Shown here one piece after another: positions 15,250-49,889 of a DNA stretch of 64,000 bases. Position numbers and translations under genes: made by a program. Every line of letters begins with the position of its first letter. The first letter of the stretch is position 1. The notes under the pieces are model-generated. The model worked only from the letters and a program-made list of their open reading frames with translations, did not search any database and was not told the DNA's origin. The stretch spans positions 10,060,259 to 10,124,258 of the forward strand of contig OX442320.1 of assembly GCA_949358305.1 (NCBI GenBank), read 5' to 3'. This DNA comes from Strigamia acuminata. Taxonomy: Eukaryota; Arthropoda; Chilopoda; Geophilomorpha; Linotaeniidae.

Positions 15250-18200
15250 GTGAGTTTTTGTATTAGAAATTAAACTGTGCGAATTAAACAATAATGTCTT
15301 TATATCATGCAATTGTGCAATTACGTACGGGGCAGGGATGGGGAACCTTTTTTCTGGCAAGGGGATGTCCGTAAGTTACGTAATGCACCAAAAAGGAAAG
15401 AAATTAATTTTTAATAACGAAAATATGAGGATTTTTTTATGATTTTGGAAAATTTTGGGGGGTGATTTTAAGTTTTGTTACGTAATTAGGGGGTTCGGAA
15501 ATTTGTTAGGATGTTACAGAGTGGGGGAGGTGGTATAAAAATGCCAAATTTTGCGTTACGTAATTTATGGACGGCTTTCAAGGTCCATTTGGATGTTTGT
15601 AAGGTCGTTCGCGGGCCGTATAAAAATTATCGGGTTAAAAATTAGCGTGGATTTGGTGAAACGTTTAATTAAATCATCGCTAATGCGGTGATTGCGTTTG
15701 CTGGGCCGGACGAAATGATTTTGTGGATGTTATTTGTTCCTCACTTGCAAGGATGTTTTTTGGGGGGGGCGAGGGGGGGGGGCGTTTTGTAATTAGTTTT
15801 TGCGATTTTCTTTTTGTTTTGATTTTTTTTGCGGTTTTTTGGTGGGGAATGATTTGATTAGTTGGTGGTTGGAACGGGTTTAGTGATTTATGGTGTTGAC
15901 GATTAATAATCAGTAGTCATGGCTTTGGAACACTCGATTGTGATATCAAGTTGTTATTATTTGCACGTGTTTCGGGCTTAGAGGAAGACGGGTTATTTGT
16001 TTTATTATTGTTTTTGTTGCGTCATTTTTGTGGTTTGCGTTTAGGTTTGGTGGTTTGTTGGGAAATAAATGTTTGTTTAGTAAGGGGAGGTTTTTGTTTG
16101 GTTTGCATTTTGGGGATTATTTTTGGATGCAAAGTTGGGAAAGTTTTGGTAAAAGTTCACGAGTTTGAGTGACGGCGTGTTTGATGTTGATACGTGATGT
16201 AAATAAACAAAATTTGAATGTTTGGGAAAGCAATTATGTGCGGAAAATAAATATTTTTGCATTTTTGGGTTTTGGTTGGAGTGGATGGAGAAGGTCGCTG
16301 TTTTGTCTTTTGTGTTGGTGGGATGAAAGAGCAAAGTAATTAGTTTGATGGAATGAGATGGGTTTGGATGGCGTCAGTTTGGCGTATTGTTATCTCCTTG
16401 ACAACTCGTTTTTTTTGTTTTGTTTTTTGTTTTAATATTTTCCTCATGTGGCCACGTGTTATTTGCTTATTTTTGATGAGATACGACTGACGTTTGAAAA
16501 ATGAAAACAATAAAAGGGAAAATTGAAGTGTCTGTCTGCAGCTGTGGTGTGGAAAGTCATCGCATCGTGTGTTTAAAAACAAGGAAAACGACTCGGGAAA
16601 TGCACAAAAGTTCTCGAATTTGATGGTTAAAGCTGCGAATTGTGGCCTGGCGTTTAAGCAATAAACGACGGATCTTATTAAGCGCCGGAGTCACAAAAAT
16701 TACCGATTGTGTAATAAAAAACTGATTTTTAAAAAAAAAAATTGGTCATTTTGTTGTAAAATCACCGATTTTGTTGCAAAATTATCGATTTTGTTGTAAA
16801 ATCACCGATTTTGTTGTAAAATCACCGATTTTGTTACAAAAATCACCGATTTTGTTACAAAAATCACCGATTTTGTTGCAAAAATCACCGATTTTGTTGC
16901 AAAATTATCGATTTTGTTGCAAAACTATCGATTTTGTTGCAAAAATCACCGATTTTGTTGCAAAAATCACCGATTTTGTTGCAAAAAGCACGGATTTTTT
17001 ATAAAACCTCCTTGGGATCGGGTCCGGACGACGTTGGATCTTTAAAAATGTGTAATAACAAGTTTGTTTGTTGACTTGGCTGACGAGACGCTTGGATTCG
17101 TGCCAGTTTAAAAAGGTTGCAGGTTAAATTTTTCTTTTTATTTGGTCAAGATTAGTGTTGTCTTTAGGTGAGTTTTTTTTCTTTGGGCTGGAATTGTTCA
17201 TTGCGGAGTCATTTGAGCTAGGCGTTGGTTCGATGAGGCGATCACTATGGTTACGCTTTGTATTTGTTGTGCTTGCATCGAAGGATGGGGCTGGGGCCGT
17301 ATGGAGCCCTTGAGAAGCATTTTCAATAGTTTGACTCTCGAGTGGTGGATTGTGAACTCCTTTTCTCTCTTATTTGCTCGCATTGAATGGCGTTGCTATG
17401 GCGATGTGTGTTCCTTGATTTGGTTTGTTTGGTGGCGCTGGTTTTCACCTATTAATTGTAATTGTCATTTTTTTTGTTATTTTTTATTTTAATTTTTTTT
17501 TTTTTGTATTTTTTTTTTTTTGGGTTGTAATAAAAGATTTAATCTCTGAAACCTTGACTATCTAGTTGTTGGAGCAGTTCCAAAGGGATTATATAAAGAA
17601 AAGGGATTTTTTGGAAGGAAAAAATCAAAATATTACACTGCGGTGTTTTTAATGGCGGATTTGGTGCAGTTGTGAAATGTGATTGACAGTATGCGCATTC
17701 ATAGTCATTTAAACTGGAATAAGTCCAGAAGTTTCACTTCTGCCGTTTGGTTTCACGCACAGCACGCTTTTTTTTTAATTTTAAAATTTTAAAAATAGTA
17801 GGCGCGTTCAAAGTTTTGGTTTTTACGGATTTTATCGTTTCTATAAACCGAACGGCATCAAAAATGTACTTATTTTGTGTCACCTGGCCCAGTGTATTTG
17901 AAATCCCGAATGAGGGTCTCCATCGCCAGTGTGTAGTGAAATCTCAAAGACCCAACACGTGTAACGGCACTTCCGGTTACGTTATGACAAAACGCGGTTA
18001 GTGTGTGATAACGTGTGTGCGATTAAACGACTTTATCTCAGATAATCGATGCGATCTTCTTCCAACGATTTCCAAAAACTTTGCCGACGCATCGGGATAA
18101 TACGCATTTTTGTGTAGGGTTCGTGTTGTTTCTGATTCCAGTGACTACTGAGCATTCCTGTGCCCCATTTTTATGACTCAGAAGGACTCGGCAAAATAAA

Positions 18201-21200
18201 TTTGTGTTTTGTCAGTATCTGGAGTGTGTGCCACCTATTTCCAGGTGCACATTCACGGCTGGGCAGGTACTTACGATCAGGCTCCCTGAGAATACTGTAT
18301 CGCGGCGTCTTTCAAACGCGTCCATTTAACTCTCTTGGAAACGCGATTCATTACACGTCCACAACCAAAAACCATCACCAAAAACCGCAAAAACCAAAAC
18401 CATTTTTGACTACTTTGAACGCACCTAATTTTTTTTTTTTACTATTATATTAAATGAGTTTATTATATTAATTGATTGGGCGATGGAGTTGTGATGTTTT
18501 GGTGGTGGATTTTTCAATGCTCTGTTTAGAGGCTTCAAGTGGGAAAGCTCACCTCGACGGTTGGCTTCACTGCACACCATTTTCCGTAAGGCGATTACGT
18601 TTTAAAAGCAGTGGCCGACACAAAAGAAAACCTGAAGGGATTTGCCAATATTTTCTAAGTTTGTTATTATTAGTTTTGGAGTGGGCAATTTTGGTGCACA
18701 ACACGTCGGGACAAAAAAGAGCGATCGGGAAACAAATTGATGTCGTCGAATGGAGGAATGATTTGCAGCTGCCTTGAGCCGTCAATTTTCATTGCACATG
18801 TCGAATTAGCTGTTTTTTTGTAGTTGCGAAGTTTCGGACAGGGAATGATGCTGCGTTGCTAAGCAACAGCATGGTGTTGGTTGGTGGCGCTCTCTGGCGG
18901 TTTAAAGGGGAAATGTGGTTTTTTTTTTTTGGTTTGAAATATTTGATTGAATCATTTTCGGGAATGATTTTCGGGTTTGGAAGTCGTTAAAAGTGAGGAT
19001 GGTTTTTATCTTTGAAATGATAAGGCGTGTGTGCATCGTTAGCTTCGATTTTTCGACACCAGGGGGAGATAGTTTATTGCAAATGATTTTTTTTTATTTT
19101 TTTAAATATTTATTTTTAGAGTTTTGAACTTTGATTTGATTAATTTTCTACGATTAGGCAAGATTTTAAAATGGTCAGTGACCCTTTCTTGTGGCTGCTT
19201 AAACAAACCACAATGTATTTATAGAGTTGAGTTACTTCTATTTGTGGACTTAACTCGGCACATTTGGAGTGGCACGTGTTCAATTTTTCATGAAAAATTG
19301 TTGAAAGACCAAACGTATAATTTTTTTGTGGTAAAATTTGTTAGGTTTTTTTTTTTTTTTTGGTATTTTTCTGTCGATAATTGAGTAATTTGTTGTGGTT
19401 TTCCTTTGGCCATCAGTCACGAGTGTCTTGAGATTTGTTGTTATTGAGTTTGTGAACGCCATCAAGTGGACCGTGGTGAAAGCAATTAAGTTAGTGGGTA
19501 CCTTTGTGAACTGACTTGTCAACAGGGTTCTCACTCATATACTTTAACCTAACCTGTAAATGCTTGGCTTGACGAATCGAAGCTTATTACTCTTCTGTCA
19601 ACCCAATAAACAGCTTCCTTTAGCAATCAACTCGGCTCATCCGCGCCGAAGTGGGGGCACAAAACAAAACAAGCGCGGCTATTTAGGTTTAGACTTACCA
19701 GGAACAAATTTAGTACCGGGAAATTTGGATAGGTCGGGCCACGGGAACAAATTTAGTACCGGGAAATCTGGATAGGTCGAGCCACGGGAACAAATTTAGT
19801 ATCGGGAAATCTGGATAGGTCGGGCCACGGGAACAAATTTAATATCGGGAAATCTGGATAGGTCGGGCCACAGGAACAAATTTAATACCGGGAAATCTGG
19901 ATAGGTCGGGCCGTGGGCAGAGATCTGCATTGGGTACCCGTACCCTACAAGTACGGGCAGGTAACGGGTACGATTTTTATGCCAATGCACATCTCTGGCA
20001 CACGTGATCGCGTTCAGGAACAGGTACGGGTAGGGTAGGGTAGAGAACTTTTTTGGAGACGGGTAACGGACGGGTAACGGGTAAGGATTTTACGCCAATG
20101 CAGATCCTGGCCGTGGGGTCAGGCATTTCCATCGTCGGTTAAGTAACTTGTACCAAAAGTAAAGTAAAGATAGTTGCAAGGGTTTGTTTGCGGCCTGGGA
20201 AAACAAGCTTATCCGATTGGAAATGAGCTCGGGAATCGATCCCGATTTCAATTTAGTCGTGGCGTGCACCATTGCCAAGTTACGGTCCCTTAGTGAAATG
20301 TTGGACCTCTATTCCAATGACCGCTCGTTGTAATGTGTACAGACGGCTAATTTATTGGTAGTAAAAAAATACTTTTCCCCAAAAAAAGTTTCTAGATTTG
20401 CCTTAGCAAACGTTCTTTTTTTTTTCTTTTTACCTTTGTCTCTAACTGTTGATTTTTGTGGGATATTTTTATTTTTGGATATTGCTGCCAATGTGAGGGG
20501 TTTATTGGTTGGAAATTCCTTCGGCGGTGCATTCCTCGGGGTGGAATTAATCAAGTGTGGTGCGTGATACCATCATGCTAGAAGCACTATAGTTGTCTTA
20601 CACAATGGATGAATAATTTTTCAATATGCCCTGTCTGTTGGATGAACCCTGTGACTTTGCCTGTCTAATTAATTTAAACTTAAATTTGTTTGCCAAATTA
20701 AAACACACTCGGAGTCCGATAAAAGGCGAATCGAAACTACGACTACAATTCGTAATTGGGACTAAAGAGGGCGTTGTAAATTTATTCCCTCGACAACGAG
20801 CGCTAATTTATATACAGCGGTAATTTGGAAATTTCTCACTTTTAATAAATGGGGCATTAATATTTAATGATGAGGGTATGGGGAAAAAAATTTTGGTTCA
20901 ATGTATTTGTATTATTCTTTAAAGTTGAGGTTTTTGGGTGTTCCTGGCGTCAAATCGTGGCGTAAGATCATTTGTTGTGATTCAAGTCATGACCAACTGT
21001 TGCTGCTTAAAAGGCGCTTCGACGGGTGGCGTGGATCACCGTGGCAACTGACGTTGCCACGGCAACAACTGCTTTTCTTATAGCAATGGCTGAATTAATT
21101 GTTTTGCATTTAAGCTGATTAATTTCGCGAGAATCAGTCGTTTCAAATTTATTTACTTAAATTTGACAAGTGGGAGTCTTTGATGAATTTATTAATGTGG

Positions 21201-33737: not shown

Positions 33738-36700
33738 TTATTGTTGGCGATGTTGAAAAATTAGTTTTTCCATTTTTCTAGCCACACTCAATATCGACAG
33801 ACCTAGCGATAAACTTAAAATATTTCCGATGTCGCATATGAACGAGATAATCTCATATTCAAGCCGGTCAATAAACATTTGAATTTTGTTTGTTTCGAAA
33901 TAATGGTATATTGAGGTATATTTATTGTTGGAACGTGTAGGTCGTGCCAAGCTAGAGTACTTAGATTCTTTGCAGGGAATGTGACATTGACATGCATCCT
34001 TAACATTTGTTTTAAGAAAAATCTTTTTGTAGATAGAATCCGTCGTTTTTGCCGATTGAGAAGTATTGCACATGGGATATTGCAGTTGGTCTATGTATGG
34101 TAATCTGGAGAGAGAAAAATTTTGTTAGCTATGATCTAGTGTTTTGTGCGGTTTACAAATCTGTCTTCGGTGTTCAAAGTGAAATGTGTGTGCTCTGTTA
34201 TCACTAAAAGTTTCAGTCTAAAAAAATAGGACTCAATTTAATAACCCCCTGTCTTTGACTTATTTTCCAACCAAGAATGACTTCAAATCTCCCAACTCAT
34301 AAAACCATCATGAAAACTATAGTTCTTTTCTAATGCTTATTTCCCCCAAAACAAGTTTCACATTCCAACATATTTACCCTAATTATTGCCAAATGTATCC
34401 CAATTTTTATTTTTATTTTTATTGTAAACACTATAGGCGCGTTCAATTTCAAATCGAAAAACCGATTTTCTCGATTATCTAGATTTTTCCTGGCGGAAAT
34501 GATGCAAAACACGTCATATTTTTGAGAATCGGATTCTTTCATCTTTCTTCTAAACGTTATCTAAATTGTCCGAATCGCTCCATGTGGGCTCGTCTCCGCC
34601 CCACGCACTGTAGTCATCGCAGTTTGTGTATCGACATTCTTCCTTCTGGACTTCCGTAGATGTCGAAACTTAAATCGTACACATGTTTCCTTCGGGTATC
34701 TGATTTCTCTTGCCTGCACCCTTACCATGCTTGGTATTCTGTCTTTCTCGCTTCGGTTTTGTACTTGCTACTATCTTGTGTGCATTCCCTTCACAATTAA
34801 AACAAAACGTTGGGTTTTCAAAGTCATTCTCCGTATGCCCGGGTTGGTTGCAGTTAAAGCATTTCCTGTCATCTCTGCGCTTTTCTAATTTCTTTCGGTT
34901 ATCGACTTAGGACGCGACATCCGTGCTTCTTTTGCTTTTAATACCGTTTTGGGTTTCGAAGACGCCCATCGAATACTAAGTGGCCATTGTGTTCACAATA
35001 AAACTAAAAAAAAGAATTGGGATACTTTGGCAATAATTGGGGGGAAAATTTTGGGGTGTAAAACCTTTTATTTGAGGAAATAAATATTAGTGGAGAACAA
35101 TATTTTAGTTGAGCGACTTTAAGTCCTTCTTGGAGGTAAAATGAGTCAAAGATGGGGAGTGAATAATTTGTTGTCAAAACAATAACTAGAATTTGTGTGA
35201 AAGAAATGAATAAATATTTTTTCTGTTGTTTGGTGTAGGAACTTTGATATTTTTATGACTGGGTGCATATACTGTATGCCAAAACAAACATACCGGCATG
35301 TTAATTTTTCATTCAGTTTTTTGCGGTAACATTGCTTTTTGCACTGATAGAAATCGTTTGGTTGCATAAATTTTCGTATTCGGGTATTTATGCGGTCAAA
35401 CTATTAAGAAATTTAAAAAAATATTTGTCAGTTTATATTTTTGTTATAATTACACAGTGACCAGGATTATAAATCAATCAATCTTAGTTCAGACAACAAA
35501 GCTCGTACAACTCTGACTGAACTTTGTAGAGTGTGGACTGGGTGCATTTTTTGGGCCTAGGCTATTCCTTACTGTATGACTCAATGTTTTTTTATGCCAA
35601 CCCAAATTTTGGAAAAAAAAATTTCTTTTGACCCAACAACTTATGTTTTACAGTATATTCGAGAGTTGTTGTCCCTGGATAAATGTGGTTGAGGTTAATT
35701 TTATGATGAGTCTCATGGTTAACCTTGGTCCTAAAAGTCTCTGGCTGCATATGAAGTTAAAATGCATGTTGAAGAAAAGACTAAACAAGTGGCATCCATG
35801 AAAACTGTGTATTCACTGGGGTTGAAGCTTTATTTTGTCTAATGCCTAGTTCACACTTGAACCATTTTACCAGTCGATTGGAAAACTGTCTAAAAGCAGC
35901 CAGGTAAATGGCGTTTTGAGTTTGGAACCAATTGATGTATTCGATTAAAGTATGACGTGTTTAAGTTTTCTTACCTTGATCATGCGATACCCAACACTTA
36001 CTACGATGCCACCTTCGAATGGTAATAATCCATTTGAAGTCAAATCCAAATCTTGGTCTTCTCTTGTTGTTATGAAAAACTTTGTGATACATGACAATCA
36101 ATTAACATACGAAATTAAATTTCTGATTGATATGCTTTTTTTACCTCGTAGTATTGGTCACATAACATCAATTCAGGAGGCTCGTAATGCTTTATAAGCA
36201 TTGTGGCTTGGCCGTTGTACGGAGTTTCATCTAGAAAAAAAGAGGAGTTGTGATTATATTGTTATTGACTCATTTTCAGTAAAATCCATCATTCAATCAG
36301 TTAATCGGCATTTTGCATATTTTGTGGACGGACCATAAGATTTACCATGTACCCCAAATTTATCAGTCAATTCTTAGCAAAAATACTTTTTGAATGATAA
36401 GATGCATAGGATCAAAAGATTTAAAATTTAAAATTTAAAATTTAATTTTTTATTTTTATTTTTATTTTCATGATTGCCCGAATTATTTTCATGGGAATGC
36501 TCAAATTAATTTTATGGGATTCCCCAGACTTGCCATAAGTTTGGATTATAAGGCGCACTTCGGATCACAAGACGCACTAAACTTTTAGTTGACTTTTTAA
36601 ACTGCGTCTTATGGTCTGCAAAATACGGTAATGTAAAATAATATTACAAACAAAAGTTGACGGAAACTGAGTTAGATCGAAAAATGTTATAACCATTTTG

Positions 36701-39700
36701 TTTACATTTTTTGATACAATAACTTATTTGTATTTTGGTGTCGATTGTAATAACAAGATTGCTTCCAATACTGTGCTACTCGATGGGAGGGTGGATAATA
36801 ACTAATTTTGGCAATCATTTGCTGCAGCATCAAGTTAAAGACACACCAATTAAGTAACGTGTACATATTCCTCTTGGGGTATTTATTTCAATGTCTGAAA
36901 ACTGTACCTGCCAAAAGGTAAGATTTATAAGATGACTGTCTGGTAAGTTGCATAATCCTACTTACGTAACCAGTTAAGACCCAGGCATCTGAAGAGGAAG
37001 ATTGCTCCCATAGTTCTTCTATTGTGAGGTTTTCTCCTTTTAAATCTAGTAGGCTCAACATGGGAATGGGACAATCACTCTGACTCAGATTATTTTCATC
37101 AGCATACATCTTCTCCAATTCAAAGGTCGTCGGTTTCGTTATTATACAAGCTGTTATGTTTGGAAAGGTTACATTTGCTTCGTCCGCGACTGCAATGTTT
37201 ACTCGTATGGGATATGCCATGTAAGTCATCAATTTGAATTAGATCATGGCCAGAAAGAGGGAGGTGCAGCCGAGATAAACAACCTTTTCCAATATGTTTT
37301 GAATACGGCTGCGAGGAATTGGCTCGTTTTCTTTCAGTAGGGATGAGAAATGGCTTTTTGTTTTCTGCAGATAATGCCATACTTTGTGGTGAATTCTACT
37401 ATTGTTCCATGACGTTGCATTACGTTTTCTATAATTGATGATTAATGTGATCAAATCCAAAACTGAAAGTATTGACATCCCAAGGTAAAGGCCAATGTTT
37501 CCGGCTGCATCAATGAGTAGATTGACAAATCCATAAGCAAATCTTTCTTTGATAACTTCAATAACAGGTGATGCTGCTTCGTTTTCGCGTTCTGTCAATG
37601 GGGTATCTGATGTAGTAGATGTGTAGAATTTTATCTGCTCTTCTATTTGAGTGCACATTCGGTTGCACAAGCACTTTAATTCTGATTTGATTTTCTTTAG
37701 TTTATTGCAAATGTTTATGTACAGAATTCTGGTATCAATGGAAGCATTGCATGTGTCGCCGGTCTTTCCACTCATAAATGGCAATCTGAATAAACAATAA
37801 TATTTAATTATATCAGTGTTGTGTTTAACTCAAATTCATTTTAAATGGTTATTCCTGTGTGTAAATTGATTTCTCACCTGCAAGGTTGCTGACTGTAAAA
37901 ATCTTGAAGGCATTTCTTGTGACATTTGATAAAATCCTTTTCGTCAATGCATGGATTAGAAGATGTATTCAGAAATATAAACTACAATTATAGACGTAAA
38001 AAAATAATCAAGATTTGCAATGTATACACTGGACCATGAAGCAAGGATTACAGGGACACATATGCATGTATTATTTCCTTTTGATTCGTGGTTTTGTATG
38101 CTGATTGGATAACCGAAATCACGTGTTATGTATTGCATGCTAACTAAGTATGTTTGTTACTTGCAAAGTGGAATACAGTGTGGCTATATATAAAGGGTGT
38201 CCCAAAAGTAACGCAAGATTTGAATTAGTCGCCATTTGTGCAGTAAATTGTTGGCAACCCTGAAACAACAACGATTTGACAGCTGAGAGTTTGGGGTTTT
38301 TCTGCCGAAATTGGATGATATTGATGTGGCCAATATGTGGTTTCAACAAGACGGTGCCACATGCCATACAGCTCGTGAAATAATTCAATTACTGCATAAA
38401 TGTGGCTGAATTTCGTTGATGCAGCGTTTAATTTCCTCCTGTAATGCACGGGTGGTTGTGGGCTTGTTGACATAGACCTTTGACTTCAAATAACCCCATA
38501 AAAAGAAATCTAATGGTGTTAAATCACATGATCTAGGGGCCAATTCTGATCACCGAAACCGGTGATGTCTCATGCAGTAAGTAATTGAATTGTTTCACGG
38601 GCTGTATGGCATGTGGCACCGTCTTTTTGAAACCACATATTGCCCACATCAATATCATCCAATTTCGGCAGAAAGAACCCTAAACTCTCAGCTGTCAAAT
38701 CGTTGTTGTTTCAGGGTTGCCAACAATTTACTGCACATATGACGGCTAATTCAAATCTTGCGTTACTTTTGGGACACCCTTTATTATGTGACGCCATTTG
38801 TGGCAAAACACTCTGAACATGTGATCCTTCTTTGTTCATGACTGTAGTCTGTAGCCCAGACGGACATAGGACGGGTCTCAGGAAGTTGTCTAGATGGGAG
38901 AGGAAATGTAACATTACTTGTCAGAACCTTAAATCTGTTTATTTTTCAACATTTTGACTGTTTTTCCTCAATTTTTGCCTTTTTTGGTTGTATCTTTTAA
39001 CAAATATCATACTGTACGTAATGCAACACCTTGGGGAAGACGGTAGGAAAATTATTAATCAAATGGTGATGGTAAATACCTCTTGTAAACTAAATTTACT
39101 TCTTATTACTTCATTTGAATTTTCACGGATTGCCATATCAGATCTACCTGGAATAGGGCTTGACACCTACAATTTTAATAAATTTTAATGTTTGAAATTT
39201 GCTTTTTTTATTGTAGGTAATATATATACGTAAAGTATGCCTGGGGGACAGAATCGTGGTCGATTGAACCACATTTTCAATTTGCCGTATAAATTTCGAT
39301 CCGTAATATTTTCTAGAAAACACCAAATGACTCCGTAGTAGGAGTTTATTCCTGTTAATGGTCGATCATAACTTACCAATCGTTATCACATCGCAGGTTC
39401 CATATATGGAAAATTCTTTGCTTATTTGAATATTTGGTTTGTCCATAGATTTCTGTAAAAAGTCTGGTAGTTTACATTTCAGTTGGGAAAATAGAGTTTG
39501 CGACAGGTACTTTTCCCTTATAAAAACTCCTGTTAAGCCTATAAGTATAGTGGAAAACTTATAACTCTACCCGAGCTTACACTACAACTGAAAATAGCGT
39601 AGCCAATCCGGTAGTTTTCCATTATTTACGTCACTAACTAAAAATCTGGATTAGCATTGACCTGTTTCGCCGCCATTTTGAATTCTCCGCTTCATTCGCA

Positions 39701-40491
39701 CGCGGAGCACATGTTATGTTATGGTTTATCTAATTGTTTGTGCTTTAAATTCTTGTAAATCCACAATAATAAAGTTGCAGCATTGTATTGCAACAGTTAG
39801 AAACAGGAATTCTCTCTTTTTATGCGAATGAGACATTAATAGTTTTGGTAATCACGTGACATGTATAAGGTTAACTCCAATTTTATAACGATAACTTAAA
39901 ACTTCAACCGCAACCCGCTTTAACCTTACACTAAATATAGTGTAAAAAATGTCATAATTCTAAGGGAAAAGTACCTGCCGCAAACTCTCTAATAAATCGA
40001 TATTTGCTTACCGAAATAAATTCTGTTTTGTTTAATACAGGTTGATCAATATCCCATAATGCAGATATGTTGACATTCTCATTTTCAAATAAATGCGTTA
40101 TGATATCGTCACACTCGTACAAAGTGTTTGGTGTTTTGTGTAAAAAAAATTTCCACGCTTGTCGTATGTATGTGTTTTCACTCGTGCACACTTTTAGAGC
40201 TGGGAATGACATCTCGGTTGCGTCTCTTGTATACGCATCAGTAGCGATGGGGTTCGAAAAGAAATATTTGATTTTCTGCCCAGTTTGATAGCAACAGACT
40301 GTAAGGCAGCTCATCAGAAGTAAAATCCAAACTAATTTGATTTTACCGCTTTTCGTGCGATCAATTAATGTTTGTAATTCGGGAAATGATTTCTCAAACA
40401 TCCATAGTCGTGGCATTTGTTGTTGTACAATTCTACGAATTTTATACTTTACCGCAGCTGCAACTGCATTCCTTCTCATTACAATTCTCAT
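33738..40491 (-). CDS. DEG/ENaC channel gene A, two-unit architecture
   Basis: Ten exons on the minus strand (high to low): 40491-40012, 39452-39377, 39166-39080, 37981-37878, 37795-36966, 36907-36847, 36230-36145, 36079-35975, 35400-35294, 34104-33738. Unit 1: TM1 (VWILLLMSCLTVCCY) then FFSNPIATDAYTRDATEMSF and FPALKVC; GTCDVITI; Cys-rich FIKCHKKCLQDF; TM2 GNIGLYLGMSILSVLDL. Unit 2: TM1, FPNITAC, GICTRYL, EGGIVVSVGYRMIK, FYQCKKQCYRKKL, CQCHIPCKESKYSS, TM2 DIGNILSLSLGLSILSV. The family makes trimeric sodium-selective, amiloride-type channels of the plasma membrane. A TAA at 37241-37239 interrupts the second TM1, so translation would give about 434 residues with unit 1 only. The exon 2/exon 3 join is one base out of phase with these boundaries. 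Full length without the stop would be about 765 residues. Expression and function are uncertain. Confidence 0.75.
36966..37795 (-). CDS. Gene A linking exon: TM2 of unit 1 + TM1 of unit 2
   Basis: An 830-bp exon (phase 2 in, phase 0 out) encoding LPFMSGKTGDTCN..., the Cys motif CLCNRMC, the pre-TM2 segment and TM2 GNIGLYLGMSILSVLDL with the G-x-S selectivity motif (GMS), a basic linker of about 75 residues, then the second TM1 (SLFLAMI, stop, FKLMTYMAYPIRVNI) and FPNITAC. The stop TAA at 37241-37239 replaces the tyrosine codon TAT of gene B. The frame is the same on both sides of the stop and downstream sequence is still well conserved, so the stop is recent or an allele/assembly error. Confidence 0.85.
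38193..38781. mobile_element. Fold-back mariner-like element
   Basis: TA-flanked (38191-38192, 38782-38783). Ends AAGGGTGTCCCAAAAGTAAC and its reverse complement. The left ~210 bp and right ~210 bp are inverted copies of each other, both carrying transposase codons (MWFQQDGATCHTARE, left arm on plus strand). The centre on the minus strand carries codons resembling DQNWP ... LKSKVYVNKPTTTRAL with breaks. It is a palindromic, non-autonomous derivative of a Tc1/mariner-like DDE transposon, inserted in the intron of DEG/ENaC gene A and inside a copy of the dispersed 190-bp repeat. Confidence 0.8.
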
Positions 40492-40639
40492 TTTGCAAAC
40501 ACAAGTATGAATTTTTCGTTTTAAGAAGGTTGAAAACTTGCTGTTGTTCTAGTTTATGCCGGGGTTTGCATGCGATAGTGTTTCTATTTCTTTTGTATGG
40601 AAGTTTGAAAATTGCATGGATATGAGATATATTAATGGA

Positions 40640-40790
40640 ATAAGTAATAAGAAAATTATATACTGTACATGTTGACGTGGCTAGTGTAGCAATTTGTTGG
40701 TTTAATCAAGTTTTGCGTAAATTATTTGTAAATTAAATGTCAAAATAATGAAAAGGTGGTTGTAATTATATTGTCAATGTAGGAAATATT
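40640..40790. repeat. Repeat unit shared by 5' flanks of DEG/ENaC genes
   Basis: Pattern: GGAATAA..AATAAG, AAATTATAT..TGTACA, GTTGAC-TGGC.AGT.TAGCAA, TTTGT.GGT, TCAAGTTT, AATTAAATGTCA-AATAATGAA. Related copies at 41,695-41,760, 41,788-41,935 (41.7-41.9 kb), 46,200-46,330 (upstream of gene B) and 46,440-46,540. The presence upstream of both channel genes may reflect common ancestry of promoter DNA. Confidence 0.5.
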
Positions 40791-41204
40791 GTTTTTTTCC
40801 ATTTTAATTTTTAATGTGTTGATTTCTTAGAGAGAATGATTTTTGATAGCAAACTGAATCCGTGTACGGAGCTAGTAAAATAGTTTACATTTTTTATTTT
40901 TTGTTAAAAAAAAAGGAAATTTGCCAAAAAAAAATTTCCATAAAACGAAAAATAAAAATTTGTCTATTTTTCTATTTTCCTTTTTCAAATCGAATTTTTG
41001 TTGTTTAAGTCAAATATTAATTCTGGTGTTTGGTTTAGGAACTTGATATTTTTGTGACTCAGGATGCATATACTGTCCCAGGTAACATTTATTTTGGAAT
41101 TGGGAATATTATACATGAGTTTTACTTTTGTAATTGTTTGCCTTTTTTTTTAAATTTATTTGTGAGAAATATTTATTTCATGAAAAAATGAAAAAAAATT
41201 AGAA

Positions 41205-41600: not shown

Positions 41601-42481
41601 TGTGTGGTAAAACCTTGTTGATCCAGTTTGGTTCGGATAGTGTTTTTACTTCTTTTTTTTCCTACGTTTCAACAAAGGTTGTATATGAGACCAGTTAATG
41701 GAGTAATTAATGAGGAAATTATATGCTGTGGAAGTTGCCATGGGCAATCTATCAATTTCTTGGTTCAAGCAAGTTTTGAGCGAATTATTAATAAGGAAAT
41801 TATGTGCTGTAGACGTTGACATGGCTAGTCTAGCAATTTGTCGGTCGAATCAAGTTTCGAGCAAATTATTTTCAAATTAAATGTCACAATAATGAAAAGG
41901 TGGTTGTAATTATATTGCCAAAGTTTGGAATATTGGGTACAAGTTTATTTTTTTCAAATTAATTTTTAATGTGTTGATTGTACAGAGAGAAGGATTTTCG
42001 ATTTTTGCTAGCAAATACTGGATGGGATTCTTATTTTAATTATTTGAAAATATTTATTAGTAAGTGCAAGTAAATATAATGTATTGAGTTTTAAATTGTT
42101 TTTATTTGGGAGATACTGAAACCAAATTTATTTGTTGACCATATTTTGTTTGAAGCCGCAAATCATTTAGTTTCGGGCATACAAAATATTTTCACTTTAC
42201 TTGCAAATCATTGGCCATTGAAGATAGTGGATCAAGTTTTAATTAGAATTGCAATTGTTGGAGTAATATTTAAAATGTTAATAAGATAACTTTGTGCACG
42301 AATATATTGCTCGTGATTTTGGTTATAATTGTATAAATTAGGTTATATCACTGAATTTTGAGAGTACAAATAGATAATATTTGAAAATGGAACTAAACTA
42401 CATTAGTGCTACACACGAGAATGACATATAGTATTATTAACACGCGTGTTTGGATTAGTGTAAATTATGCTCTCAAGGTTT

Positions 42482-45400
42482 TTACTGATGTTGAAAAAAC
42501 TTTTTTTCCATTTGTCGTGCCACGCTCAATATTGAGAGACCAAGTGATAAACTTAAAATGTTTCCGATGTCACATACGAACGAGATAATGTCATATTCAA
42601 GCCGGTCAATAAACATTTGAATTTTGTTAGTTCCAAAATAATGGCCCATTAGAACGAAATCAGGATAATGGTAGTGAGTAAGAAATGGCACGCTAGAGTA
42701 CTTTGATTCTTTGCAAGGTATGTGACATTGGCATTCATCTTTTACATTAGTGTGGAGAAATGTCTTTTTGTAGACAGAATCAGTCGTTTTTGCCGATTGC
42801 GATGTGTTGCACATGGGATATTGCAGTTGATCTATGTATGGTAAACTGGAGAGATATAAATCTTGTTAGCTGTAGTCTAGTGATTCATCTATTTCTCAAA
42901 TCTTATAAAAATGTTATGATTAAACTGCAAATGTTCAAGCTGGTTTAAGAACTTTCTTATGTCGTAATACTGTACCGGCATGTTATTTTTGCATTCAGTT
43001 TTTTGCGGTAGCATTGTTTTTTGCAATTATAGAACTCCTTTGATGGCATACATTTCCGTATAGGTGTGTTTATGCGTTCAAACTAAGTAATTTTAAAATA
43101 AATATTTGTCAATTTGTTTTGTAATAAATATACAGTGGTGTTTTAAATGTTTTAGGTGTTTCGCACCTTTATCACACGATAGCTGACACCTGTTAAGGAT
43201 CCCCCTTCCATTGGTAACAGTGCGTTTGAAGTTAAGTCCAAATCATGGTCTTCTCTTGACGTCACGAAAAACTTTGTGATAAAAGACAATCAAGTAACAT
43301 ACAAAACTAAATTTTTAATCAAAATGCTCTTCTACCTCGTAGTAATAGTCACATAAAGCCAAAGAAGGAGTCAAGTGAGCTGCTGTAAGCGCTGTGACGA
43401 GGCCATTGGATTGTACTGCGCCTAGAAAGTCAAAACCATTCAATCAGATAAAGAAAGCCAAGTAAAATTGTATTAACGTGTCGATTGTAATAACAAGTTT
43501 GCTGCCGGTGTCCTTCGATGGCTTGGTGTGTAAAAGCAATGAACCAAGGATAACATGGACACATATCCACATGCTCAGTGACATATGACAACAGGTAACA
43601 AACATGCTTGGTTGGCAAGATAGTCGGCAGCACTGGATTGCTGTCATCCAATCAGTGCACAGAACAACAAATCAACAGGAAATAACACACGGATACGTGA
43701 CCATGCTATCATTGGTTCATGGTAAAAGTGTGTAGCATTGAAAAACATGGAATTTTGGCAATCATTTACTGTAGCATGAATAATTTAAGTTAGGGGAAAA
43801 TTGCTAGACATAAAAATGATTATCTGAAGATTGAGATGGATGTGGTGAATTGAGACGTGTTAGCGTTAGCATAAAACCGGAAGTGGGTCCGTTAAAGTTT
43901 ATTTACGGTGTAAACACAATGCGCCTGGTGGAGCTCATACATTAATAACATCACTCATAATACATACTATCAGTTAAGTATTGCGTACACATTCCACTTG
44001 TGGTATTTATTTTAACCTTTGAATACTTTATCTGCAAAAAACAGCATTTTGTTGTAAGAACAAAGAAAGTTGCATAATAATACTTACTCCATGTGTTTGA
44101 TCAACTTCTGCAGTGTAAGATAAATCCCAGAGTTCTTCTACTGTACGGTTCTCATCTTTTAGATCTAGTAGGCTCAATGTGCGAATTGGACAATCACTTT
44201 GACTCAGATTATTTTCCTCAGCATACATCTTCTCCAAATTTGTAATTCTCTCATCCAATACACAAGCTGTTATGTTTGGAAAGCTTACATTTGCTTCGTC
44301 CGTGATTTCAATGTTAATCCGTATGGGATATGCCATGTAAGTCATCAGTTTGAAATAGATCATGACCAGAAACAGAGAGATGCAGCAGAAATAAACAACT
44401 TTTTTCAATGTGTTTTGAATTTTGCTGCTAATTGGCTCGTTTTGAGGCAGTTGAGATGACACGTGGAGGTATTGATGGCATATTTTGAACTGAATTCTTC
44501 TACCATTCCGTGAGGTTGCATTCCGTTTTTGATAATTGATGATTAATGTGGTCAAATCCAAAACTGAAAGTATTGACATTCCAAGGTAAAGACCAATGTT
44601 TCCAGCTGCATCAATGAGTAGATCGATAAAACCATAAGCAAATCTTTCTTCAACTACATGAATGACGTTTGATGCTGCCTCGCTTTCGCGTTCTAACAAC
44701 GGCGCATCTGATGTAGTAGATGTGAAGAATTTTACCTCTTCTTCAATCTGAGTGCACATTCGGCTACATGGACATTTTAATTCTGTATTTTTTTTATTTA
44801 GTTTCTCGATAATGTTCTGATACATTTTTTTTGTATCACTTGAAGTATTGCACAAGTCGCCTGTTTTGCCAATCATAAATGGCAATCTGTATTTAAAAAA
44901 AAATAATAATAATATTAGGAAAAAAATCACAAATTAATGTTATTGCTGTATATACTGTACTCTAACGTAAAGTGATTGCTCACCTACAAGGTTGTTGACT
45001 GTAAAAATTTTCAAGACATTTCTTCTGGCATTTGTTAAAATCCTTTTCATCAGTGCATGGATTAGATTTTGTATTCAAAAATATGAACTATATAATTAAA
45101 TACAAAAAATTGTTATTGTTATTCAATTTTTAGTACAATAGGTTGGGACTGTATGTCAATGTAAGTCAAATTAGGTTCTAGGGAGAAGATGCAGCGCCAT
45201 TTTAGTATTACTAGGAATTAATCAAATAATGATGGTCGATACCTTTCGTAAACTAAATTTACTTCTTATTGCTTGATCTGATCTCAACGGCATTGGTGGT
45301 TGAGATGCATCAGTATCAGGAAATGACATCTAAAAATGTAATGAATTTAAAGTTTGAAATTTGCTTTTGTCGTTACAGTCAATATATTTACGAAAAGTGA

Positions 45401-46117
45401 GCCGGGTTTGCACAATTGTGGTCGATTGAACCACATTTTGAATGTGCCCAACAAGTTTCGTCCCGTAATGTTTTCTAGAAAACATTAAATTTGATACTGA
45501 AATATTTATGTTTATATTTTATTTTTGTATTAAATCACAACTTACCAACTGTTATCACAGTGCAAGTTCCACGAGCAGCCAATTCATTTCTTATTCGAAT
45601 ATTTGGTTTGTCCTTTGATTTCTGTAAGCAGATTTATATTTAAGTTGCCAAGTCAAATCGAGTTTTCCTTACCGAAATAAACTCAGTTTTGTTTAATACA
45701 GGTAAATCGATATCCCATAATGCAGACATGCTCACTTTCTCATTATTAATTAAGTCGAGCAGATTGTTCTGACAATCCGATGGGTTTGAATGTAAAATAT
45801 TTCTCCACACGTGACGAATGTAGGCGCTTTCAGGCGTGCAAAATTTCATAGCGGGATATGACATCTCGGTTTCGTCTCTCGTGTATGCATCGGTAGCGAT
45901 GGGGTTTGAAAAGAAATATTTGATTTTCTTCCCAGTCTGATAGCAACAGGTTGCGAGGCAGTAAACTCCAGACAAATTTGATTTTGGCGCCTTTTGTGGG
46001 ATCAATTAACGTTTGTAATTCGGGAAATGATTTCTCAAACGTCCCAAGTCTCGACAACTGTTGTAGTACAATTTTACGCATCTTGTACCTTACTACCGCA
46101 GTTGTATTCCTACTCAT
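42482..46117 (-). pseudogene. DEG/ENaC channel gene B, two-unit, with 5' lesion
   Basis: Same ten-exon layout as gene A (46117-45673, 45621-45546, 45329-45243, 45087-44984, 44886-44088, 44031-43968, 43421-43336, 43271-43167, 43082-42976, 42845-42482); exons 2, 3, 4, 7, 8 and 9 have identical lengths in the two genes. Here the linking exon is open throughout. Exon 1 starts MSRNTTAVVRYKMRKIVLQQ but lacks 11 nt of the gene A sequence within TM1 (near 45,960), so the frame shifts before FFSNPIATDAYTRDETEMSY. If the lesion is real the gene is broken unless a downstream start is used. Exon 2/3 show the same one-base phase problem as gene A. Unit 2 ends DIGNILSLSLGLSILSVA. Ectodomain motifs: RGTCTVITV, DFNKCQKKCLENF, GMCTQYL, EGGSLTGVSYRVIK, CQCHIPCKESKYSS. 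Confidence 0.75.
44088..44886 (-). CDS. Gene B linking exon: TM2 of unit 1 + TM1 of unit 2
   Basis: A 799-bp open exon (phase 2 in, phase 0 out). Order: LPFMIGKTGDLCN, CPCSRMCTQIEEEVKFF, RFAYGFIDLLIDAAGNIGLY into TM2 (LGMSILSVLDLTTLIINY), linker QKRNATSRNGRRIQF ... KIQNTLKK, second TM1 (VVYFCCISLFLVMIYFKL), then YPIRINIEITDEANVSFPNI with the post-TM1 motif FPNITAC, and NNLSQSDCPI. It ends HG before GTAAGT. This is the direct evidence for two fused channel units, because a TM2 and the next TM1 are encoded without any interruption in one exon. Confidence 0.9.
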
Positions 46118-47112
46118 TGCAATTTCTGTTTGAAAAATGTTCGAAACCTGCTGTGTTGTTGTAAAGTTTACGTGGGGATTTGCGTGTGGCGAAACACGTT
46201 ACTGGAATAAATAATAAGGAAATTATATCGTGTACATGGCCAGTCTAGCAATTTGTCGGTTGGTTCAAACTTTGAGCTTATTATTTTCAAATTAAATATC
46301 AAAAGAATGAGAATATAGTTATAGTTGTACTGTATATATTCTCAAGATAGGGAAAATTGAACTTAGCTATACTTTAATCATAGTGCAGGTTCCCTACAGC
46401 GTTATTATTTTGAGTGTTTCAAACTTCCATGTACGTAGAATAAATAATAAGGAAATTATATAGTGTACACGTTGAAATTGGCAGTCTAGAAAATAATTTG
46501 GCAAAATAAAAACCAGAAGGTTGTAACTTATAATTACATTTTTACAGTAGGTTGCACTTTTCATTTTCTCAAATTAATTATTAATTTGTTGGCTTTTTCC
46601 ATTTTTTTTGCCACATTCAATATTGCCAGTTTTAAGTTTATAATATGTTCAAGTTCGTCGATAGAGATTTGTAGCGTGCAGCAGTAAGAACTTGAACTTT
46701 GCTGCTTTTATCATGGCGCAGGTTGTAATATACAGAGTGGGCCAAAAGTCACAAACCGGTCTGACGTCGTAATAACTTTTTTTGAAATAAATATTTTTAA
46801 ATTTTGTAATTTAAATTTTGTAATTTTAGGAGATTAATCATGGAAAATAGACGTTATAAGCTTAAATAGTATTAACGTGCTGACATTTTTATTATCATTA
46901 CCTTTGGAAACATATCGAATGCAAAAGTTGAATGAATTCACTTTGTTCGGAGATCAAAATGGCGGAGAACGACGAAACAAATAAGTGAGCAAAATGAATG
47001 TGACCTGATGGAAGAGCATTTTATATTTGAGATTTTGTTAGTTTGTAAAAAAGAACAAGATTACAATTATTTTTTATATTTTATACGTTTAAGTACACTT
47101 TGAGTTTTTCAG
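46118..47112. other. 5' flank of gene B, intergenic
   Basis: No gene seen. Repeat units at 46,200-46,330 and 46,440-46,540, and a possible transposon end AGTGGGCCAAAAGTCACAAA near 46,737. An ATGGCGGAGAACGACGAAAC stretch at about 46,961 could be a first exon but stops after MAENDETNK. Confidence 0.4.
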
Positions 47113-49519: not shown

Positions 49520-49889
49520 TTATTGTTGGTGATGTTGAAAAATTAGTTTTTCCATTTTTCTAGCCACACTCAATATTGACAGACCTAGTGATAAACTTAA
49601 AATATTTCCGATGTCGCATATGAACGAGATAAGGTCATATTCAAGCCGGTCAATAAAAATTTGAATTTTGTTTGTTTCAAAAAATTGGCTTACTACATAG
49701 CTCAGAAGATTTACATGACGTGTAACTCGTGTCAAGCTAGAGTACTTAGATTCCTTGCAGGGAATGTGACATTGACATTCATCTTTAACATTTGTGTCAA
49801 GAAAAGTCTTTTTATAGATAGAATCAGTCGTTTTCGCAGATTGAGAAGTGTTGCACATGGGATATTGCAGTTGGTCTATGTACGATAAT
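49520..49889 (-). pseudogene. DEG/ENaC fragment C, last exon only
   Basis: Encodes the unit-2 end: YPMCNTSQSAKTTDSIYKKT, CQCHIPCKESKYSS and TM2 DIGNILSLSLGLSILSVARK, stopping at 49,520. The frame is open and the acceptor (CTTCAG) is kept. None of the other nine exons occurs upstream; the duplicated block stops at 50,826 in a transposon fragment. A truncated gene copy without a start. Confidence 0.85.

Follow-up and report, generated by a model that had tools for sequence, protein, structure and literature searches.

The window, i.e., the whole 64,000-nucleotide stretch of Strigamia acuminata DNA that was analyzed, carries two genes of the DEG/ENaC channel family on its minus strand, here called gene B (46117-42482 including the stop codon; coding sequence 46117-42485) and gene A (40491-33738), each of which was resolved into 11 exons by splice-aware alignment. 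DEG/ENaC channels are regarded as trimers whose separate subunits have two membrane helices each (TM1 and TM2), and an FPxxTxC-like motif after TM1 is a feature of the family. Exon 1 of gene B (45673..46117; like all exons below, on the minus strand), which is frameshifted, covers the N-terminus, TM1 and early ectodomain of a first unit (unit 1), and exons 2 (45546..45621), 3 (45392..45474), 4 (45243..45329) and 5 (44984..45087) cover ectodomain of the same unit, with CR at the end of exon 5 and a phase-2 intron behind it. Exon 6 (44088..44886), placed by reading and alignment and flanked by AG before and GT after, is open and leads from unit 1 into a second unit (unit 2), in the order palm end, TM2 with GMS, a linker of 44 residues, TM1, FPNITAC and early ectodomain; exons of this kind are referred to below as linking exons. 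Exons 7 (43968..44031), 8 (43336..43421), 9 (43167..43271) and 10 (42976..43082; a phase-2 intron follows) encode ectodomain of unit 2, while exon 11 (42482..42845; reading and alignment) supplies the palm end of unit 2, TM2 (DIGNILSLSLGLS) and the stop. The initial annotation had described a single open exon joining TM2 of one unit to TM1 and FPNITAC of another, with flanking exons that complete both units; this exon is present as described, from 44886 to 44088, and the 11 aligned exons between 46117 and 42482 complete both units.

Gene A consists of exon 1 (40012..40491; reading and alignment), which encodes the N-terminus and TM1 of unit 1 in an intact frame with FPALKVC after TM1, exons 2 to 5 (39452-39377, 39312-39230, 39166-39080 and 37981-37878; span 37878..39452, by alignment), a linking exon (36966..37785; reading and alignment), exons 7 to 10 (36907-36847, 36230-36145, 36079-35975 and 35400-35294; span 35294..36907, by alignment) and exon 11 (33738..34104; reading and alignment) with TM2 of unit 2 and the stop. 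The end of the linking exon was placed by hand at a GTAAGT donor; the automatic model ended it at 36987, at a GC donor and also in phase 0. When the two halves of each protein were run separately against Pfam-A, with broken sites entered as X, every half scored above the PF00858 cut-off of 23.6 bits (54.4 and 58.1 bits for units 1 and 2 of gene A; 39.0 and 54.1 bits for those of gene B), so that PF00858 occurs twice per protein, second half included, as had been predicted.

Both genes carry lesions that had been overlooked earlier. The claim that gene A shares the structure of gene B holds for its two units and its linking exon, but TM1 of its unit 2 is interrupted by an in-frame TAA (37241-37239), which replaces the Tyr codon found in gene B. 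Likewise, the arrangement of gene B as a two-unit gene stands, but TM1 of its unit 1 is 11 bases short as compared to gene A (near 45961), so that exon 1 falls out of frame. As a disabling lesion is found in each, genes A and B are probably decaying members of their family; these lesions leave the main claim untouched, because an intact member, L031, exists elsewhere in the genome.

The window holds several further features. A last exon of unit 2 type with TM2, detected as a last-exon match, lies at 49532..49888 (minus strand), and no companion exon of such a copy was found within the window. An upstream element common to family members is present at 46188-46260 (minus strand) as well as at 40638-40791 and 41701-41935. 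A 73-nt query taken directly 5' of gene B identified 10 places in the genome including itself, seven of which are followed by a first-exon match after 83-168 bases and two others after 1.3 and 2.0 kb; the element may be a family promoter element. An open frame with CCHC zinc knuckles, which we take to resemble retroelement gag, is located within the last intron of gene A (34670-34906, minus strand), and tandem repeats occur at 16748-16998 (12 units of 21 bases) and 19701-19912 (five units of 43 bases).

A genome-wide family and its origin

The animal's own genome (237.5 Mb in 157 contigs) was searched for further linking exons, with only the best candidates scored. With the linking exon of gene B as query, 144 matches were listed (24-100% identity), 136 of which span TM2 to FPxxTxC; 128 of these 136 are stop-free, and stops are present in 15 of the 144. 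The linking exons of the distant genes L032 and L033 as queries added 57 places (52 spanning, 49 open), giving 177 open linking exons in the genome among the matches listed (128 + 49), a number that includes some identical copies and some on a small contig that is possibly a duplicate. Subfamilies are in some cases only 22-33% alike. The arrangement described for genes A and B is confirmed, and its extent is that of a genome-wide family rather than of two genes. Chance or artefact as a source of the linking exon is excluded by copy number together with the purifying selection described below. A search for relatives in the protein database yielded 6182 candidates, none of them at E <= 0.001.

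First-exon and last-exon matches, intact or not, were assigned to a linking exon if they shared its strand, were no more than 30 kb away and had no other linking exon in between; of the 150 last-exon rows, two fragments were dropped and 148 used. A first-exon match upstream was found for 91 of the 128 open linking exons, a last-exon match of unit 2 type downstream for 84, and both for 74, while for the other 54 the search, at its given depth, detected no first or no last exon. Both are present for the first 30 open members in the table, all of the close family; the 31st (C1:49441453) is without a last exon. We saw no three-unit gene, because the longest open frame among the 150 last-exon matches of unit 2 type measures 199 aa and approx. 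205 would be needed for a third TM1 with FPxxTxC. A recent tandem amplification lies at C4:3.01-3.06 Mb, where a linking exon with one and the same reading frame occurs three times at a spacing of approx. 13.35 kb, beside a fourth, more divergent member. In the member at C9 8.36 Mb (L029), exon 9 is followed by an open frame (L029 6014-7300, plus strand) that is presumably gag-like, and a last-exon match lies approx. 24 kb downstream of exon 9.

The intact member L031 (C8:14509000-14516700) encodes a protein of 784 residues in 11 exons, with ten GT-AG introns and its sole stop at the end, and each of its halves exceeds 23.6 bits for PF00858. Its intron phases are 0,1,0,0,2 in unit 1 and again 0,1,0,0,2 in unit 2, with no intron at the join, and genes A and B show the identical series twice. 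Units 1 and 2 of L031 share 23% identity (E 4e-21); when they are aligned, three of five introns fall in the identical column and phase, and the other two, also equal in phase, are offset by no more than 3 and 9 columns. The automatic model of L032 (phases 0,1,(1),0,2 and 0,1,0,0,2) is suggestive only, as it contains two introns that we do not believe, one of them inside the open linking exon. L030 was excluded as a gene model, its sequence stopping short of the first exon and its exons 1-4 having been misplaced by the aligner. Overall, the PF00858 matches of both halves, the diverged open linkers in more than 100 copies and the intact L031 support the reading of these genes as two complete fused DEG/ENaC units in one gene, as the initial annotation had proposed.

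The repeated phase series and the intron positions in both units point to tandem duplication of a six-exon one-unit gene; the simplest origin would be that such a gene was duplicated and that the last exon of one copy and the first exon of the next merged into one. A tree of the palm-TM2 exon was built from 47 exons (33 unit 1s, six unit 2s, six other last exons of the genome and two centipede channels) over 119 columns. In this tree the 33 unit 1s group together (98/90), as do the six unit 2s (99/97), and each group contains the same four subfamilies. As the sampled unit 1s and unit 2s each form a group, one old fusion is indicated, and most likely the fusion happened once, before the family spread. 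The tree contains several long branches, which leaves the position of SU_L004, a one-unit gene, next to the unit groups uncertain. The last exon of the one-unit gene L064 (C5:5189700-5194700) is a neighbor of the two-unit family in the tree, and its TM2 exon is likewise preceded by a phase-2 intron. In comparison with the unit 2 guide, only the phase-0 intron at the start of L064 and the phase-2 intron at its end looked alike, the middle of the alignment being poorly resolved; L064 is a candidate for the ancestral one-unit form.

Linker, selection and pore residues

Linkers were compared in 32 of 35 distinct open frames obtained from 48 loci (L017, L019 and L054 were left out). All 32 carry a net positive charge and are 40-52 residues long; 19 of them, including that of gene B, have no Met between TM2 and TM1, and 13 have one. 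The linker of gene A, outside this set, also has no Met. Since Met is missing in 19 of 32 linkers, internal initiation in the linker would be no general route to a separate unit 2. Among 132 pairs of the close family, dN/dS was 0.18 for TM2, 0.52 for the linker (bootstrap 0.34-0.79), 0.25 for the stretch from TM1 to FPxxTxC and 0.37 for the early ectodomain of unit 2; among 10 pairs of a second subfamily, the values were 0.28 for TM2, 0.94 for the linker (0.41-3.5) and 0.30 for TM1 to FPxxTxC. Judged by these ratios, purifying selection on the linker is shown in the close family only, as the linker value of the second subfamily has wide limits. The close-family value argues that the linker is translated together with both units.

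By hydropathy and homology, each unit has two membrane helices and each polypeptide four, unlike the two-helix chains of other DEG/ENaC proteins; one extra hydrophobic stretch in the ectodomain of unit 2 also passes the hydropathy cut. An AlphaFold2 model of the linking exon (32 sequences) placed helices at 74-132 (TM2) and 153-185 (TM1) with a loose stretch between them; the model is poor (mean pLDDT 59, pTM 0.29), with block pLDDT of 71-90 only in the helix cores 91-120 and 151-180. L031 has 16 glycosylation sequons, none of which lies in the linker or tails and one of which falls in TM1 of unit 2. P203 and C208 of the motif after TM1 of unit 2 are invariant in the 32 linking exons. A His-Gly motif before TM1 is common in the DEG/ENaC family and has a role in ASICs. 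In place of this motif, unit 1 has TKS in gene A, TKG in gene B, TKG in L029 and TKP in L031, and HG before TM1 of unit 2 was found in none of the 32 linkers.

Pore positions were numbered by PDPNaC1, a centipede channel that is gated at Asp372 and Gly375 and needs Gly378 for its selectivity (PMC12714832). Position 375 is Gly in all 32 unit 1s. It is Asn in all 22 last exons preceded by a linking exon, a set made up of 16 of 20 fetched last exons together with those of genes A, B, L031, L032, L033 and the C4 copy. The orphan exon of the window (49532-49888) also has Asn. The four fetched last exons without an adjacent linking exon, which may belong to one-unit genes, have Asn (L072 and L075) or Ser (L076 and L077). 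Gly is found at 375 in nine other last exons of the genome (L001-L008 and one in L029) as well as in PDPNaC1 and BRTNaC1, a second centipede channel. At position 378, 25 of 32 unit 1s have Gly, and unit 2s following a linking exon have Gly or Ser, often Ser. Other pore features are kept: the upper-gate Asp (372) is present in 32/32 unit 1s and in 21/22 unit 2s (Glu in L068), D92, G95, G102 and S104 are invariant across the 32 unit 1s, and GxS in TM2 occurs in 22/22 last exons following a linking exon and in 26 of the 27 last exons of unit 2 type that were read (AxS in L077). So consistent a difference at a gate position suggests separate functions for units 1 and 2.

Proposed channel and known systems

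We consider it probable that these genes form a natural tandem-dimer DEG/ENaC family, with a single old fusion, two unlike pore units per chain and a likely sensory function. By sequence, one chain comprises unit 1 (TM1, Cys-rich ectodomain and TM2), a linker that is basic and 40-52 residues long, and a unit 2 built alike, with both chain ends and the linker presumably on the cytoplasmic side. After the fusion, gene birth and death would have multiplied the family to far more than a hundred copies, and the units would have acquired their different pore signatures. Each chain would then provide two unlike neighboring positions of a cation pore, the mixed composition being set by covalent linkage and not by chance assembly.

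Several other explanations were weighed. The loci could be two ordinary one-unit genes in tandem, with separate proteins arising from alternative transcript ends and starts or from a two-cistron message, and a Met able to start unit 2 is indeed available in 13 of 32 linkers; however, it is missing from the other 19 (gene B among them) and from gene A, linker length and positive charge are kept in 32/32 across subfamilies approx. 30% alike, and the close-family linker ratio of 0.52 together with 128 stop-free copies among 136 spanning ones speaks for one continuous product, which makes separate proteins very unlikely. That the copies are amplified relics without function is harder still to credit, and we give it hardly any weight: genes A and B are broken, stops occur in 15 of 144 matches and the window has an orphan last exon (49532-49888), whereas TM2 and TM1 of the close family evolve at ratios of 0.18 and 0.25, 128 of 136 copies are open and L031 is intact.

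Two alternatives accept the fused chain and differ as to its pore. Unit 2 could stand outside the pore as a tethered regulatory or decaying domain of a trimer of unit 1s, as the change of the gate Gly to Asn in 22/22 and the frequent Ser in place of Gly378 might indicate; yet GxS is kept in 22/22 and the upper-gate Asp in 21/22 (L068 has Glu), and the close-family ratios for its TM1 (0.25) and early ectodomain (0.37) show purifying selection, so that this reading seems unlikely. A non-trimeric complex, in which two chains make a four-unit channel or three chains a six-unit ring, would suit the even numbers imposed by two-unit chains, and the authors of one biochemical study favored a homotetramer for ASIC1a (PMC4529235). 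Set against this are the homotrimeric PDPNaC1 (PMC12714832) and the three chains in the PDB entries of BRTNaC1, and we regard such a complex as quite improbable.

For the tandem-dimer channel, a pore that is still trimeric appears most likely. A unit from a further chain might occupy the third pore place, or a one-unit partner from another locus of the genome might do so, a solution with a substantial chance though somewhat short of even; the next best reading, which is possible but rather doubtful, would have three chains make two tethered trimers. That a two-unit chain can form a channel at all is suggested by engineered ASIC1a: chains of two, three and four subunits conduct, and the two-subunit chain gives typical ASIC1 currents in oocytes, although smaller breakdown bands were also observed (PMC4529235). 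The stoichiometry, which the initial annotation had called awkward, is less so in the light of these currents. A sensory role, whether chemical, pH or heat, is likely by analogy, as the repertoire is large and the nearest relatives are PDPNaC1 and BRTNaC1 of Scolopendra. More tentatively, the animal could possess a whole repertoire (>100 genes) of natural concatemers with a fixed pore of Gly and Asn gates, possibly arranged by three chains as tethered trimers.

A natural, old and greatly expanded fusion would reveal how the make-up of a mixed channel becomes fixed in evolution, a natural concatemer could be used for testing stoichiometry and the role of each pore position, and the family may be a major sensory-channel repertoire of the animal. 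Our literature search, in which coverage was partial and the exact phrase DEG/ENaC was unsearchable, found no natural two-unit DEG/ENaC fusion; the relevant literature that it did find concerned one-unit centipede channels and arthropod DEG/ENaC repertoires. The main text of the Strigamia genome paper contains no mention of ENaC, pickpocket, degenerin, amiloride or sodium channel (PMC4244043). Descriptions outside the literature searched, or database entries with two ASC domains, may exist.

A large spider-mite DEG/ENaC repertoire was reportedly described by Ngoc et al. in 2016. Members of the family have been proposed as chemoreceptors in insects and mites (PMC7738191, available text), and arthropod repertoires such as that of mites, compared here by description, include no fused two-unit genes in the part of that text available. 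By sequence match, the nearest solved relatives of the fused family are centipede sensory channels. The best PDB match to the whole of L031 is PDPNaC1 of Scolopendra subspinipes mutilans (PDB 9jf7), which aligns within unit 1 (E 5e-17). PDPNaC1 has 421 aa as compared to approx. 390 per unit of the fused family, and its pore residues align without gaps; it differs in being a gene of one unit with two helices, not a fused gene, and in its filter, which is GAS as opposed to GMS or GLS in unit 1. It is described as a homotrimer without a knuckle domain that is expressed in antennal sensory (receptor) neurons (PMC12714832). For unit 2 of L031, the top match in the PDB (E 2e-11) is BRTNaC1, the broad-range thermal receptor of the centipede Scolopendra (PDB 8ymr and 8ymw), a single unit of 431 aa. 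Although they are the best PDB matches, both channels fall outside the two unit groups in our tree, which has long branches; BRTNaC1 groups there with the last exon SU_L006 of the genome. Engineered ASIC concatemers likewise join the C-terminus of one subunit to the N-terminus of the next, but are man-made. In one ASIC2a/3 study, linkers of 19 residues were added between subunits (PMC10329638), whereas the natural stretch from TM2 to TM1 totals 40-52 residues and joins units that are unlike.
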